Shown here piece by piece: positions 34,613-39,583 of a DNA stretch of 64,000 nucleotides; the first letter of the stretch is position 1; every line of letters starts with the position of its first letter. Position numbers and translations under genes: made by a program. The DNA is from Anaerolineae bacterium (GTDB taxonomy: Bacteria; Chloroflexota; Anaerolineae; Anaerolineales; Anaerolineaceae): the NCBI GenBank assembly GCA_013314735.1, contig JABUFD010000005.1, forward strand, positions 1-64,000. The letters run 5' to 3'. Below the pieces are notes generated by a model. The model saw nothing but the letters and a program-made list of their open reading frames with translations. It had not been told where the DNA came from and did not search any database.

Positions 34613-34653
34613 CGTGAAAGAACGAATGCCAACCGGTCATTGAGCAGGTATTG

Positions 34654-37350
34654 ATGGAACAAATTCTGGCAACCAAATTTTTCATCCCGCCGCTGCGGCG
34701 CAAAGCGCTGCCCCGGCAGCGGTTGTTTTCCATTTTGGACCGCGGATGCGAAATGGCTTGCAGCCTGTTCCTGCTCAGCGCGCCGGCGGGAACAGGCAAA
34801 ACCACCTTGCTGACGTCATGGCTGCGTGAGAGAAGGTTGCAGGATGAGGTGGTCTGGCTTTCGCTGGATGCCGAGGATAATGACGCGGCGCGGTTTTGGG
34901 CGTATTTTTTCGAAGCGGTGCGCCGTAAGCTGCCGCAGATTGATATTGACGCCAGCCTGGTGTACCGGCCTTCTGCAACAGAGGGCGGCATCCGCAGCCT
35001 GTTGAGTGTGTTCCTGAATGCCACGGTATCCCTCAACCCGGAGAAACCACTGGTGGTGGTGCTGGATGATTTTCACCTGGTACAGTCGCCGGAAATTTCG
35101 GCAGATATGGCGTATCTGATTGAGCAGGCGCCGGAACATTTTCACCTGTTTCTGCTATCCCGCACAGACCCGTTGTTTCCGCTCTCGCGCTTCCGTTTGG
35201 AGGGGCTGATGGTGGAAATCCGTGATAGGGACCTGCGTTTCACCCCGCAGGAAACATGGGCGTTTTTCGATGAAGTGCTGCATCTTTCACTGACCGAATT
35301 GCAGGCCGCGCGCCTGCAGGAACGTACGGAAGGCTGGGTGGCTGGCCTGCAACTGGCAGGGATGTCATTGGCCAATCGGGCGGATGTGGATACATTTATC
35401 AATACATTTTCTGGTGACAACCGCTACATTGCAGATTACCTGTTTGAGGAATCGCTGGCAGGATTGGATGATGAAGAGCGGCAATTCCTGTACCAGACCG
35501 CGATCCTCAACCAGTTCAATGCTTCCCTGTGCGCCCACCTGACCGGATTACCACTTGCCCGTACTGCGGAGTTCCTCGAACGCCTGGAGCATGGCAACTT
35601 CTTCCTCATTCCCCTGGATGATGCGCATGAGTGGTACCGTTACCATCACCTGGGTGCTGACCTGCTGCGGGTGCAGGCGCAGGTACGGTTTTCCGAGGTG
35701 GAAATCAGGCGCTTGCATTCAGCCGCCAGTGATTGGTACGCAGACCGCAAACTGGCCGACGATGCCATTCGTCATGCGGCTGCCGCAGGCGATATCGAAC
35801 GCCTGGTGCAGCTGGTGACCGACAATATTCCGGCAGCCATTTACCATTATGAAGTAAAAACAGCGGAGCGCTGGCTGTCATTGATTCCCGCAGATGTGGT
35901 GGATAGCAACATGAATCTGCTGCTGGGGCATGCCTACCTGTATCACCTGATAGGGCAGGCGGAAAAGGTTCCTCCCTATCTGCCAAAGGTGGAGCGTTTG
36001 CTGCGGGAAAAGCCTTTTGCATCTGAGGCAGAACAAAACCGTCACGAAGGTCATTGGAATGCACTGCGTTTCTTCACCCTGGTGCACCAGGAGCAGCTGG
36101 ACCAGGCGCTGCCGTTGGGGGAGCTGGCGGTGGCACAGCTGCCGCTGGATAACATCGCGCGCCTGTGGATGATGACCTCGCTTGCCAATATGTACCTGTG
36201 GCACGGCGATGTGAACCAGGCCGAATCGCTTGCACGGGCAGCGGTGGATGCCAGCCTGGTGCAGCACTTAAAAATCGAGGCTATTAATGCCTACATCGTA
36301 CTCGCGCATGTGGTCTTTGTGCAGGGACATCTGCGGGATGAATTTGCTTACTACGAGCAAGCCCTTGCCCTGGATCCGAAGGTCGCCGGGGATTATTCAC
36401 CCTATTCTTGTATTACCCTGACACGGATGGCCAGTAATTACCGCTGGGCGCATGATCTGGAAAAAGCTTACACCTATGCCCAGCGGGGAATGCAACTGGC
36501 AGAGCGCTGGCGGGAGGGCGAGTCTTTGTTGGAATGCCAGATCGAACTGGCGATGGTGTTGTGCGCGATGCGTGAATTTGACCGTTCGCTGGCGCTGCTG
36601 GAGGCCGCCAAACGTTCGGCGAAACAACATTCCCCCTGGTATCTCGGGCAGGTGGGACATCGTGAAATGTACGTGTTGGCACAGCAGGCAATGGAAGAAA
36701 ACCGGTCGCTGGCGGTCCCGCTGGCGTGGGCCCGCGAGAAGTATCGAAGTGTGCCGCGCCCGATTCCTGCGGTGCAAAAACCGGTGATGATGAGCGCCGC
36801 GTTGCTCCTGGCCTTATCCCATGAGGTGGATAAGGCAATGGATTTGGTGCATACACTGGAACAGGAAGAGCGCAATAACGGCCGGCTTTCCATGCTCTAC
36901 ATGTTGCTGCCGATCAAAGCACTGGTGCAATACCATACCGGCCACAGCGACGATGCCTTTCTGACGCTGGATGAAATTATCGCCCCGGCCGTGGCTGAAG
37001 GCAGCATCCAGCATTTCCTCGATATGCATGCCCCCATGTTGGATTTGCTGCAAGCCTACGACAAAGCACGGCCGCGCAATGTTTATATTCCGCGTTTACT
37101 GGCGGCATTCGGTGCGAAGCAGGAAGGATACCACCTGTCAAAGGACGGCCTGGTGGAGGAACTGACTGCGCGTGAATTGGAAATCCTCGAGATGATCAGC
37201 CTCGGCTACACCAATGCGGAAATCGCTGAAAAGCTGTTCCTGGCAGAAACCACGGTTAAAAAGCACATCAGCAATATCTTCGGGAAACTGGGGGTCAAGA
37301 AGCGCACCCAGGCTGTGCAACGGGGGCGTGAATTAAAGCTGCTGGCGTAA
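34654..37350 (+). CDS. MalT-type LuxR family transcriptional regulator
   Basis: This 898-residue protein has the MalT/LAL layout. The N-terminal STAND-type ATPase has Walker A SAPAGTGKTTLL (about residues 42-53) and Walker B LVVVLDDFH (about 131-139). The long middle is TPR-like, with many paired helices between residues 370 and 800. The C-terminal LuxR HTH reads LTARELEILEMISLGYTNAEIAEKLFLAETTVKKHISNIFGKLGVKKRTQAV. Such regulators activate promoters on binding an inducer. Two promoters just downstream share a 24-nt box at a fixed distance from the -10, and this protein is the obvious candidate to bind it. Start is ATG at 34654; TTG three bases ahead is less likely. Confidence 0.92.
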   Translation: MEQILATKFFIPPLRRKALPRQRLFSILDRGCEMACSLFLLSAPAGTGKTTLLTSWLRERRLQDEVVWLSLDAEDNDAARFWAYFFEAVRRKLPQIDIDASLVYRPSATEGGIRSLLSVFLNATVSLNPEKPLVVVLDDFHLVQSPEISADMAYLIEQAPEHFHLFLLSRTDPLFPLSRFRLEGLMVEIRDRDLRFTPQETWAFFDEVLHLSLTELQAARLQERTEGWVAGLQLAGMSLANRADVDTFINTFSGDNRYIADYLFEESLAGLDDEERQFLYQTAILNQFNASLCAHLTGLPLARTAEFLERLEHGNFFLIPLDDAHEWYRYHHLGADLLRVQAQVRFSEVEIRRLHSAASDWYADRKLADDAIRHAAAAGDIERLVQLVTDNIPAAIYHYEVKTAERWLSLIPADVVDSNMNLLLGHAYLYHLIGQAEKVPPYLPKVERLLREKPFASEAEQNRHEGHWNALRFFTLVHQEQLDQALPLGELAVAQLPLDNIARLWMMTSLANMYLWHGDVNQAESLARAAVDASLVQHLKIEAINAYIVLAHVVFVQGHLRDEFAYYEQALALDPKVAGDYSPYSCITLTRMASNYRWAHDLEKAYTYAQRGMQLAERWREGESLLECQIELAMVLCAMREFDRSLALLEAAKRSAKQHSPWYLGQVGHREMYVLAQQAMEENRSLAVPLAWAREKYRSVPRPIPAVQKPVMMSAALLLALSHEVDKAMDLVHTLEQEERNNGRLSMLYMLLPIKALVQYHTGHSDDAFLTLDEIIAPAVAEGSIQHFLDMHAPMLDLLQAYDKARPRNVYIPRLLAAFGAKQEGYHLSKDGLVEELTARELEILEMISLGYTNAEIAEKLFLAETTVKKHISNIFGKLGVKKRTQAVQRGRELKLLA

Positions 37351-37423
37351 TTGGCGCTTCTGCGCGGTGGCTGGCCGGTAGTCTGATTCGCGCGGTTTGC
37401 AATACAGATACCGTGCCCGGGTG

Positions 37424-37482
37424 AATACTACTTGAATATGCTACTTTGGTAGCTGTTACTGCGTGCATCAATCACGTATGAT
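37424..37482 (+). promoter_or_regulatory. putative LuxR-dependent promoter 1 (box plus -10)
   Basis: The box AATACTACTT-N6-GCTACTTT spans 37424-37447. Exactly 29 bases later comes a -10 TATGAT (37477-37482). There is no TTGACA-like -35 at the expected place (TGTTAC), as expected for an activator-dependent promoter. The small gene at 37513 follows. The same arrangement recurs at 37755-37813. Confidence 0.6.
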
Positions 37483-37512
37483 AGATGAAAATCGAGGCAT
37501 CGGAGATTGCAT

Positions 37513-37746
37513 ATGGTTTGGAACGGATCACAGCCGGAAATGCGCCCTTACCGGATTGAAATTGAGCAGCAACTGTCCCCCACTTTCCTTGCCGTTTTGG
37601 GTGATGTGGAGGAGCGGATTGAACAGGAGCAGGTTTTTCTGGAAGGCTCATTCCGCGATCAGTCCGAGTTGATCGGGTTGATTCAGAAGTTGTTTTCCCT
37701 GCATATTAACATCGTATCGGTGGTTCCGTTGGACCGGGTTTCATAA
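37513..37746 (+). CDS. small conserved protein found near MalT-type regulators
   Basis: This 77-residue protein starts at ATG behind CGGAGA. The pattern YRIEIEQQLSP near residue 14 and a later FRDQSELIGLIQKLFSLHINIVSV match, from memory, a family of 70-80-residue proteins with the pattern YRIxVxGxLD and DQxxLxGLLxKxRDLxLPLLSV. Those are frequent beside LAL/LuxR regulators in Chloroflexota and Actinomycetota. Function is unknown; a ligand- or protein-binding role is possible. It sits between the LuxR gene and the micropeptide operon and carries the same promoter box as the latter. Confidence 0.75.
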   Translation: MVWNGSQPEMRPYRIEIEQQLSPTFLAVLGDVEERIEQEQVFLEGSFRDQSELIGLIQKLFSLHINIVSVVPLDRVS

Positions 37747-37754
37747 GGCAGGAC

Positions 37755-37813
37755 AATACTACTTCTGATTACTACTTTCAGGTGATGTGAAAAAAAGGAT
37801 GAGAGCGTAAGAT
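37755..37813 (+). promoter_or_regulatory. putative LuxR-dependent promoter 2 (box plus -10) of the micropeptide operon
   Basis: The box AATACTACTT-N6-ACTACTTT spans 37755-37778 and matches the box at 37424 in 17 of 18 fixed positions. The -10 TAAGAT (37808-37813) again begins exactly 29 bases after the box, with CG just before it in both cases. No -35 consensus is seen. The first peptide start codon is 44 bases past the -10. Confidence 0.6.
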
Positions 37814-37857
37814 AGAATTAACACGGAAAACGGTTCACGATTCACAAGGAAGACACG

Positions 37858-37929
37858 ATGTACACCGCACAATACTTACTGATTGCCCAGGCCGCCTTTG
37901 AGCGCCAGACAAAAAAGAACGGAAAATAA
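37858..37929 (+). CDS. micropeptide 1 of a four-gene tandem family (23 aa)
   Basis: This gene encodes 23 residues: MYTAQYLLIAQAAFERQ and a basic tail ending TKKNGK. The first 15 residues are hydrophobic or aromatic and could form a short amphipathic or membrane-seeking helix; the tail is positively charged. AAGGAAG lies 5 bases ahead of the ATG. It is the first of four paralogs within 451 bp. I do not recognise the family. The repeated ATG-plus-ribosome-site context and the protein-level conservation argue for real translation. Confidence 0.75.
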   Translation: MYTAQYLLIAQAAFERQTKKNGK

Positions 37930-37971
37930 CAAACCTCGCAGCAGATTTGGTTTTGGAATGGAGAAAACGAA

Positions 37972-38052
37972 ATGTATACCACGCAGTACCTGTTGATCGC
38001 CGCCAAGGCATTTGAACAAGAACAGCACAAGCAGCACAAGCGGTCCCGCTGA
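37972..38052 (+). CDS. micropeptide 2 of a four-gene tandem family (26 aa)
   Basis: This gene encodes 26 residues: MYTTQYLLIAAKAFEQEQ followed by a His/Lys/Arg-rich end HKQHKRSR. The ribosome site is the sequence ATGGAGAAAACGAA directly ahead of the ATG, identical to that before copy 3. It lies 42 bp after copy 1. Synonymous changes relative to the other copies (TAT/TAC, ACG/ACA, CAG/CAA) show selection on the peptide rather than the DNA. Function unknown. Confidence 0.78.
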   Translation: MYTTQYLLIAAKAFEQEQHKQHKRSR

Positions 38053-38102
38053 AGCCCGGACTTTCCCCCGAAGCTTTAGCCCCGCGGAATGGAGAAAACG
38101 AA

Positions 38103-38180
38103 ATGTACACCACACAATACATATTGATCGCAGCAGCCGCTTTTGCGCGGCAGCAAAAGACAAAACATCGGAAGGCTTGA
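38103..38180 (+). CDS. micropeptide 3 of a four-gene tandem family (25 aa)
   Basis: This gene encodes 25 residues: MYTTQYILIAAAAFARQQ followed by the basic end KTKHRKA. ATGGAGAAAACGAA precedes the ATG. It lies 50 bp after copy 2. Of the four copies it has the most alanine-rich core and lacks the Glu after Phe that the others share. Function unknown. Confidence 0.78.
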   Translation: MYTTQYILIAAAAFARQQKTKHRKA

Positions 38181-38233
38181 TCTTTGGGAAACGTTGCTCC
38201 TGAAGATCAAGGAAGACAGAAGGAGCAAACGAA

Positions 38234-38308
38234 ATGTATACCACGCAATATTTTTTGATCGCCAGGGTGGCGTTCGAACGAAAAGAAAAACGGAAGAATA
38301 AAAAGTAA
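38234..38308 (+). CDS. micropeptide 4 of a four-gene tandem family (24 aa)
   Basis: This gene encodes 24 residues: MYTTQYFLIARVAFERKEK followed by RKNKK. GGAGCAAACGAA precedes the ATG. It lies 53 bp after copy 3 and 8 bp before a strong terminator stem, so it closes the operon. It is the most basic copy. All four share M-Y-T-(T/A)-Q-Y-(L/I/F)-L-I-A and a Phe at position 14. Confidence 0.78.
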   Translation: MYTTQYFLIARVAFERKEKRKNKK

Positions 38309-38316
38309 TCGGAGGA

Positions 38317-38352
38317 AAGCCTGGTGGCAACAAACACCAGGCTTCTTCTTTG
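38317..38352 (+). terminator. rho-independent terminator of the micropeptide operon
   Basis: AAGCCTGGTG (38317-38326) and CACCAGGCTT (38335-38344) form a perfect 10-bp stem with an 8-base loop, followed by CTTCTTTG. Confidence 0.8.
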
Positions 38353-38407
38353 AGGTGAAAGAAAGCTGTGAGAAGGCATCTGTTATACTTATGGAGGAGG
38401 TTTATCA

Positions 38408-39583
38408 ATGACAAAACAAAATCGAAAACACAGGCTTCGGCTGGGCTGGTTAATTTTGGGTTTGTTGGGGCTGGTGATCATTTTAATCGCCGTTATCAAC
38501 ATATCCAACGCACGCCTGTTCGCCGCCCATCAGGAAGCGAAATCTGCCCTGCAGCCGGACGAAATGATCGAGGTGGCCGAATTTCAACACCTGCGGCAAG
38601 AACTGGCCAATACGGTTTGGCCCGGGTGGGGTGAGATTGACCTGCCGGTGATCGTGTACAATGCCAGGTATGCGTTCCTGACCGGCATGAACGATCCGGC
38701 GCCAGGTTGGCTGCGGTTACCGCAGTTGAATGCGCTTGGACAGGCCTGGGAATTGGCCGGGGATGAAAGCGGGCTGATCGGGCAGTATTACATGCAGCCT
38801 TTGAATGAGGATGTGACACCACAGGCTTTCACGGTGAAGGTAGGCGATACCTATGCCGCCAGCCTGACAACCCGCACCTGGACACAGGAGAAATTGGTAC
38901 AGGAAATCCGCGCCGATTTTCCACCGATTGCGGATCACCTGTTCCCATTCCGTTTGTTTATCAACCAGCTGGTGGGTTCCCGTGACCAGTATTTAACCAT
39001 GTTTGCCCACGAGTCATTCCATGCGTTCCAGGGTACTGTGGCTGAAGAACGCCTGCTATCAGCGGAGCGCACAGCTCCCTACGAAGAAACATACCCGTGG
39101 GATGCCGTGCAGGAGGATTGGAAAGCCGAAATGGAGATTCTACAGGAAGCGGTTTCCTGCATGGACCCATCCGACTGCAAGGTGCTCGCGCAGCAGTTCC
39201 TGGCAGCACGGGAGCAGCGGCGTGAAGCGCACTGGATGAGTCCGAACGACATCTCGTTGGAACAAATGCGCGAATGGGAAGAAGGCCTGGCAAAATACGC
39301 GGAACTGATGATCTGGAAAGCGGCGGATGAGAGCGAGGCTTACCAGCCGCTGGAAGCGATCGCTGCGCTGGATGATTTTCATGGGTACGATCGATTTGCA
39401 AAGAAATGGAAGCGCGAAGTGAGTCAGATTGTTCTGTCAGCCAACCAGTCATCCATTTCCCGTTTCTATTACTCGGGGATGGCGCAGGCTGTCCTGTTGG
39501 ACACCTTGATGCCCGACTGGAAAACCCGCGTGATGGAAGAGGGTGTCTTTCTGGAAGATTTGCTGCGGCAGGCGGCCGAATAA
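38408..39583 (+). CDS. membrane-anchored putative zinc metalloprotease (HExxH)
   Basis: This 391-residue protein begins with a basic stretch and one membrane helix (LGWLILGLLGLVIILIAVI, residues 12-30), so the rest faces outside. HESFHAFQ at residues 201-208 is a zinc-binding HExxH motif. EEGLAKYAEL (291-300) supplies a likely third ligand Glu. Two Cys (251 and 257) could form a disulfide. I do not recognise the family. GGAGGAGG sits 7 bases ahead of the start, and a TATACT -10 lies at 38384. It follows the micropeptide operon by 99 bp, across a terminator. Processing of the peptides is possible but unproven. Confidence 0.7.
   Translation: MTKQNRKHRLRLGWLILGLLGLVIILIAVINISNARLFAAHQEAKSALQPDEMIEVAEFQHLRQELANTVWPGWGEIDLPVIVYNARYAFLTGMNDPAPGWLRLPQLNALGQAWELAGDESGLIGQYYMQPLNEDVTPQAFTVKVGDTYAASLTTRTWTQEKLVQEIRADFPPIADHLFPFRLFINQLVGSRDQYLTMFAHESFHAFQGTVAEERLLSAERTAPYEETYPWDAVQEDWKAEMEILQEAVSCMDPSDCKVLAQQFLAAREQRREAHWMSPNDISLEQMREWEEGLAKYAELMIWKAADESEAYQPLEAIAALDDFHGYDRFAKKWKREVSQIVLSANQSSISRFYYSGMAQAVLLDTLMPDWKTRVMEEGVFLEDLLRQAAE

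Follow-up and report, generated by a model that had tools for sequence, protein, structure and literature searches.

Direct-repeat boxes at a fixed distance from the -10 element as probable operators of an adjacent MalT-type LuxR regulator in an Anaerolineae bacterium

The subject of this analysis is a pair of promoters, P1 and P2, in the first 64,000 nucleotides (nt) of contig JABUFD010000005.1 of an Anaerolineae bacterium (hereafter the window). In both, the same direct-repeat box stands at an equal distance from the -10 element, and the boxes are very probably the operators of a LAL (MalT-type) LuxR regulator encoded beside them at 34651-37350, which would activate a small gene from P1 and an operon of four micropeptides from P2. 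Sequence comparison among related loci shows that the layout of LAL gene, box, -10 element and small gene is conserved, that the spacing between box and -10 element is kept, and that the box varies with the recognition helix of the regulator.

Two promoters with a shared box

The pattern AATACTACTT-N6-(G/A)CTACTTT is found twice on the forward strand with 0 mismatches (Table 1), and the same 2 sites were returned when both strands of the 64-kb window were searched with up to 3 mismatches. In 100 dinucleotide shuffles of the window the box did not occur. Exactly 29 nt past each box a -10 element begins, TATGAT in P1 and TAAGAT in P2, and no sigma-70-type promoter with a -35 element was found on the forward strand of 37200-38600. 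The 10-mers of the half-sites recur at 13 nt, with 8/10 matching positions in box 1 and 9/10 in box 2. The initial annotation had described two copies of a box at 29 nt from a -10 element without a -35, built as a direct repeat of CTACTT-type half-sites with a 13-nt period, one promoter leading into the small gene at 37513 and the other into the micropeptide operon; all of this was borne out by the window.

In the source genome (4.09 Mb), a search for the 21-nt core of the box with up to 2 mismatches gave 2 exact and 5 two-mismatch sites, against 60 matches for a reversed control pattern, and only the two sites of the window are convincing. Among 147 genomes of the same bacterial family, the literal box with up to 1 mismatch was found in 20 (the source genome included), which is below the control pattern and thus background; one of the 20 has an exact match (L017). 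A relative of the regulator lay within about 3 kb of such matches only at the loci of the source genome. The initial annotation had named a lack of conservation of the box beside orthologous loci as a ground for rejecting its reading; by this test the architecture of the promoter is kept and the literal sequence of the box is not.

The adjacent regulator

The gene upstream of P1 encodes a complete LAL/MalT-type protein of 899 amino acids (aa). Pfam places an N-terminal ATPase domain at residues 23-168 (AAA_16, 3e-12), a MalT-like tetratricopeptide region (TPR_MalT, 6.6e-31) and a C-terminal GerE/LuxR helix-turn-helix (HTH) domain at residues 837-890 (GerE, 2e-19), of which TVKKHISNIFGKL is the recognition helix. 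A SARP DNA-binding domain is absent among the 7 Pfam hits of this protein.

A small gene family linked to LAL genes

The small gene that follows P1 has no Pfam or PHROGs family. It belongs to a family of proteins of about 75 aa which are often encoded directly downstream of MalT-type (LAL) regulators across the phylum, presumably Chloroflexota by overall resemblance. A 15-row alignment of this family, for which no convincing Pfam or NCBIfam match was found, was used for searches that detected it in 59 of the 147 genomes of the bacterial family (E<=1e-5) and in 83 of 400 genomes of the phylum (E<=1e-6), with the source genome counted in both. Of 113 distinct small genes, 67 sit 50-450 nt downstream of a same-strand LAL/HTH reading frame, as do 18 of 29 at the phylum loci; each gap starts at the LAL stop and is counted up to the point at which the match to the small-gene domain begins, not up to a mapped start codon. 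These fractions describe this sample only, because the loci were chosen partly by their LAL gene and mostly by their small gene.

Paralogues of the small gene are also present in the source genome. One (L057:6453-6677, contig C11) stands behind a second LAL gene, with a ACACTTAAGTGT palindrome upstream and, downstream, what reads as an ATP-binding cassette transporter (no family call). Another (L138:3159-3392, contig C1) has no LAL gene and no box was seen. The search for related loci also returned one weak relative in a Kiritimatiellae record.

Conservation of the promoter architecture

Direct repeats are enriched in the gaps between LAL and small genes, with 26 of 67 gaps reaching p<=0.05 (40 shuffles each, any period), and their periods are mostly 11-13 and 22-23. 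For the gap of the window, the top repeat of this any-period scan was a different one (p 0.29), and period-restricted scans took over from it. The half-site words vary among loci and include AAACAATACTT, AAACAACACTT, AATAATACCTT, AATCACATCA, AATCAACAC and AAATACAACCTT, among others.

The position of the -10 element does not vary in this way. After the repeats had been chosen blind to it, the best -10 was sought at offsets 15-50 in 29 loci, among them that of the window and 2 that have no strong -10, and 22.5 of 27.0 weighted counts placed it at 29, 30 or 31 nt after [A/C]CTT. A spacing rule, namely an [A/C]CTT-ending repeat with a strong -10 at 29-31 nt, was framed on the same 84 loci, window left out, as those on which it was counted. 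Of the 28 such repeats inside the 84 gaps, 25 fit the rule, compared with 3 of 75 in the 777,547 strand-bases outside, giving densities of 1.674 versus 0.0039 per kb. Applied to both strands of the whole window, the rule returned the two boxes and no others. The window has the full arrangement of a LAL gene, a gap of 50-450 nt with a repeat box, a -10 at 29-31 nt and a small gene.

In shuffle tests of the spacing, 24 non-redundant loci of the bacterial family gave a two-wide peak at 31-32 in the register of the script (p=0.002) and 10 loci outside the family a peak at 31 (p=0.002), this value being the floor of 500 shuffles of the downstream sequence, with the window left out. With a two-offset test, the family loci reached p 0.002 at threshold 8 and 0.004 at threshold 9. 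Some loci with other half-sites also have a -10 at a similar distance.

A held-out set of 40 further small-gene regions, taken after the rule was set, supplied 25 distinct pairs of LAL and small genes. An [A/C]CTT repeat is present in 4 of these pairs; 3 have a strong -10, all at 30 or 31 nt, and 1 has none. Six held-out loci with the helix HNRRIF, which the script had called 'no box' or given a misplaced box, show by eye a single AACAACACTT, an inverted GTGTCT and a TATGCT about 30 nt on. These six, from one genus, are near-copies and so represent one lineage.

Further half-sites were analyzed in 44 loci (score of at least 13; L117 and L063 dropped). In 43 loci, a further direct half-site, the third, is common at 22 nt beyond the second (p 0.003), as is an inverted copy at 12 (p 0.017). 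The inverted half-site was seen to adjoin the second direct one in these gaps (for example AACACTTAAGTGTCT), with the third direct half-site lying near the -35 position. In the window an inverted GGTAGC is present at P1 only.

Second boxes were sought with each locus's own box in 51 loci (score of at least 12.4; L117, L063, L121, L187 and L196 dropped), the set that also served for the helix correlations given below. Outside the window, nearly all of the candidates were register shifts of the primary box and were rejected; the control for this search gave 81 matches in 2,349,514 bp. At L136 (G117:C74), two small genes come after one LAL gene and both have a box and -10 of their own; a second box serving a second gene is thus not unique to the window.

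Half-site and recognition helix

When the boxes are sorted by the recognition helix of the LAL protein, they fall into classes. The 10 loci with an HNL helix hold 16 ATAC and 0 ACAC half-sites (L219 has neither), the 12 loci with an HNR helix 0 ATAC and 24 ACAC, and the 3 loci with an HNQ helix 4 ATAC and 1 ACAC. In a tree from which the helix residues were left out, the helix labels need 3 changes, 2 of which are forced by well supported branches, and the link between helix and box is therefore unlikely to stem from one inheritance event. Among the held-out loci, 7 of 8 with the arginine helix have ACAC half-sites (L234 by script and the six HNRRIF loci by eye). Helices of the type [x]RTHT go with TCAC..TCAC repeats, found in 5 of 8 held-out loci with such a helix versus 0 of 17 others, and the variant THTNN goes with AATCAACAC in L094, L123 and L128 of the first set and in L251 of the held-out set.

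The association was also approached from the side of the box. A search for AACAAYACY..AACAAYACTT returned 5 exact sites in 301 genomes versus 1 for the reversed control. Four of the five lie directly after the end of a LAL gene, three of these before a small gene; at L230 the LAL end is followed by a different gene, and the small gene comes about 1.1 kb further on. The fifth site (L228, G626:C46) precedes what reads as a truncated small gene; it is a second exact copy of the box of its genome and has a TATGCT -10.

As the half-site varies with the recognition helix, the box appears tied to the neighboring LAL regulator. Together with the recurring layout, this supports the initial annotation in its proposal that the direct repeat serves the adjoining MalT-type LuxR protein as operator.

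Weighing of the evidence and alternative explanations

A number of observations weigh against this assignment. The strict rule fits only 25 of 84 loci, the remainder having other half-sites, one half-site or none seen, and a single-offset spacing test on the family loci alone gave p 0.15 at threshold 8 and 0.06 at threshold 9. Beside related loci in the 147 genomes of the bacterial family the exact box did not turn up, the second pair of LAL and small genes in the source genome (L057) lacks the box layout, and the promoters of the window are without a clear third half-site. The helices nearest to that of the window (L075 and L066, TVKRHISN[I/L]Y) are accompanied by only loosely similar boxes: their likeness to the window box is 0.58 and 0.46 by script, where the median is 0.5 and the best 0.69 (L174), and the TVKRHISN loci carry ATACAAC-type half-sites. 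One held-out locus (L246) combines an HNR helix with an ATAC half-site, and the held-out test of helix and box is small, with six of its loci from one genus. Over all pairs of loci, box likeness correlates equally with the helix (r 0.515) and with the rest of the HTH (r 0.515), the partial correlations being 0.247 and 0.248, and in pairs with dissimilar HTH domains (<45% outside the helix) there was no correlation (r 0.03, 276 pairs). With the helix no better than the remaining HTH as a predictor, the correlation over the whole matrix mostly reflects relatedness, and the residue-level code is the better evidence.

Four other explanations were considered. It is unlikely that the regulator acts as a repressor at the boxes. 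The sequence would be compatible with repression and a LAL protein has been reported to act as a negative regulator (PMC9628970), but a box placed upstream of the -10 at a fixed distance, with no -35 found, suits an activator. Somewhat harder to credit is the idea that the boxes bind an unlinked regulator and lie near the LAL gene by accident. The source genome does encode other GerE-type proteins (12 matches, several in short reading frames); against this, the layout recurs between LAL and small genes in many genomes and hardly elsewhere, and the half-site tracks the helix of the adjoining LAL protein. There is little probability that P1 and P2 are alike merely through recent duplication. They stand 331 nt apart in one locus, yet their spacers are identical at only 4/29 positions although box, spacing and -10 are kept, and the bases after the spacers are alike again (TATGATAGA / TAAGATAGA), a pattern that argues against fresh duplication; other genomes, moreover, keep the spacing with different boxes. 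Chance can practically be dismissed as the origin of the boxes and their spacing, for although the source genome has just two sites, the shuffles contained none and the rule from other genomes picks out exactly these two in 64 kb.

Proposed mechanism

If the adjoining LAL protein has its operators in these boxes, regulation may be envisaged as follows. Adenosine triphosphate (ATP) and an inducer would switch the regulator on, as in MalT, and the regulator would oligomerize. Its C-terminal GerE HTH domains would bind the two direct half-sites. With transcription starting 7 nt downstream of the -10, these would occupy about -65 to -42. The bound regulator would then bring RNA polymerase to a -10 lacking a usable -35, itself supplying a -35-type contact, so that P1 would give the small ACT/ferredoxin-like partner protein and P2 the four micropeptides. 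Binding, activation and the start sites at P1 and P2 are what we infer, and activation is preferred to repression because of the position of the box and the missing -35. The initial annotation had spoken of a dimeric activator. An activator remains the probable role; an oligomer fits better than a dimer, given the third direct half-site and the inverted copy in many relatives.

The single-sequence structural model of the small protein has a mean predicted local distance difference test score of 86, yet 3 of 5 models are near 53. Foldseek ranks ACT and other ferredoxin-like domains highest, with E values of 0.0019 at best, so this likeness is a hint of fold only. By analogy with MalY, it may be conjectured that the protein is a partner of the regulator. 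A wider picture, which we regard as rather doubtful, would be that of self-contained LAL switches throughout the phylum, each with a DNA word readable from its helix; here the second output would be four micropeptides acting back on the regulator or secreted as signals, with the small ACT-like protein as a co-sensor.

The micropeptide operon and downstream genes

Table 1. Positions of the regulator gene, promoter elements and downstream features in the window.
Feature	Position	Strand	Remarks
LAL (MalT-type) LuxR regulator, 899 aa	34651..37350	+	Pfam; recognition helix TVKKHISNIFGKL
Box 1	37424..37447	+	two direct half-sites, 13-nt period, then inverted GGTAGC
-10 of P1 (TATGAT)	37477..37482	+	29 nt after box 1
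Small gene, 77 aa	37513..37746	+	LAL-linked undescribed family; beta-alpha-beta-beta-alpha-beta order predicted
Box 2	37755..37778	+	half-sites and period as in box 1
-10 of P2 (TAAGAT)	37808..37813	+	29 nt after box 2
Micropeptide 1, 23 aa	37858..37929	+	
Micropeptide 2, 26 aa	37972..38052	+	
Micropeptide 3, 25 aa	38103..38180	+	
Micropeptide 4, 24 aa	38234..38308	+	
Intrinsic-terminator-like hairpin	38317..38344	+	10 pairs, T-rich tail; follows last micropeptide

Box 2 begins 8 nt past the small gene's stop codon and precedes the micropeptides, which share the form MYTxQYxLIAxxAF plus a basic tail, with ten invariant positions. In 6 pairwise comparisons of codons 1-16, 37 changed codons are synonymous against 24 that are not, and third positions account for 52 of 87 differences; this predominance of synonymous and third-position changes argues that the micropeptides are translated. 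In three of the four, the start codon is preceded by a leader that ends in ACGAA. No convincing homologs were found, either in the search of the class (fragments in 4 of 395 other genomes, E 0.012-0.029) or in that of the relatives (6 of 60 other genomes at E 0.25-3.1), and of the 7 pairs of tandem micropeptides found beside LAL loci, 6 are those of the window and 1 is in L172. Terminator-like sites number 2 in 1.4 kb versus 1.6 in shuffles, and the hairpin alone is not significant. Beyond it lies a gene (38408-39583) for a 391-aa protein that matches no Pfam or PADLOC family and whose N-terminal part includes a hydrophobic stretch.

Relation to known systems and significance

It is already known that LAL proteins can have direct-repeat operators. 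Those of MalT are described as two decanucleotides in direct repeat (PMC6099782, citing Vidal-Ingigliardi 1991), and MalT is reported to oligomerize before promoter activation and to be restrained by partners such as MalY (PMC10427625). The MalT regulon of Escherichia coli and Klebsiella has a LAL protein with an N-terminal ATPase, a C-terminal LuxR HTH and direct-repeat operators, as here, and the boxes of the window are likewise direct-repeat sites of about 10 nt upstream of a promoter. Unlike the MalT regulon, the system in the window has a box of two half-sites whose distance from the -10 is constant, goes together with a small-protein family and a micropeptide operon, and has many specificities across one phylum. 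The window box bears no resemblance to the MalT box consensus; it is not a MalT site and may nonetheless work like one.

The TpdR-dependent PTTMP promoter of Rhodococcus jostii differs from the window in repeat length and target genes, and no small partner family is mentioned for it. PimR, a SARP-LAL protein of Streptomyces, is described with heptameric direct repeats at a 10-11 bp pitch in its target promoter, not overlapping the -35 (PMC5930380), and resembles the window in having direct repeats clear of that element. Those repeats are bound by the SARP domain and PimR is given there as lacking a LuxR HTH (PMC5930380), whereas the protein of the window has the HTH and no SARP-type Pfam hit. 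Literature searches found no description of these boxes, the small family or the micropeptides. As far as those searches go, novelty lies in a spacing that stays fixed across a phylum, in the helix-to-box code, in the small family and in the micropeptides as a target.

Regulators of the LAL/STAND type are abundant and, to our knowledge, few of them have known operators. Here the operator would be readable beside its regulator in many genomes, its position before the -10 being constant and its sequence varying with few helix residues. This would provide a natural data set for the recognition code of GerE-type helices, from which the targets of unstudied regulators could be predicted, and matched pairs of regulator and promoter that could be used for cross-talk tests. 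Co-regulation with the LAL protein would also offer a first handle on two further objects, an orphan operon of micropeptides and a widespread, nameless family of small proteins.
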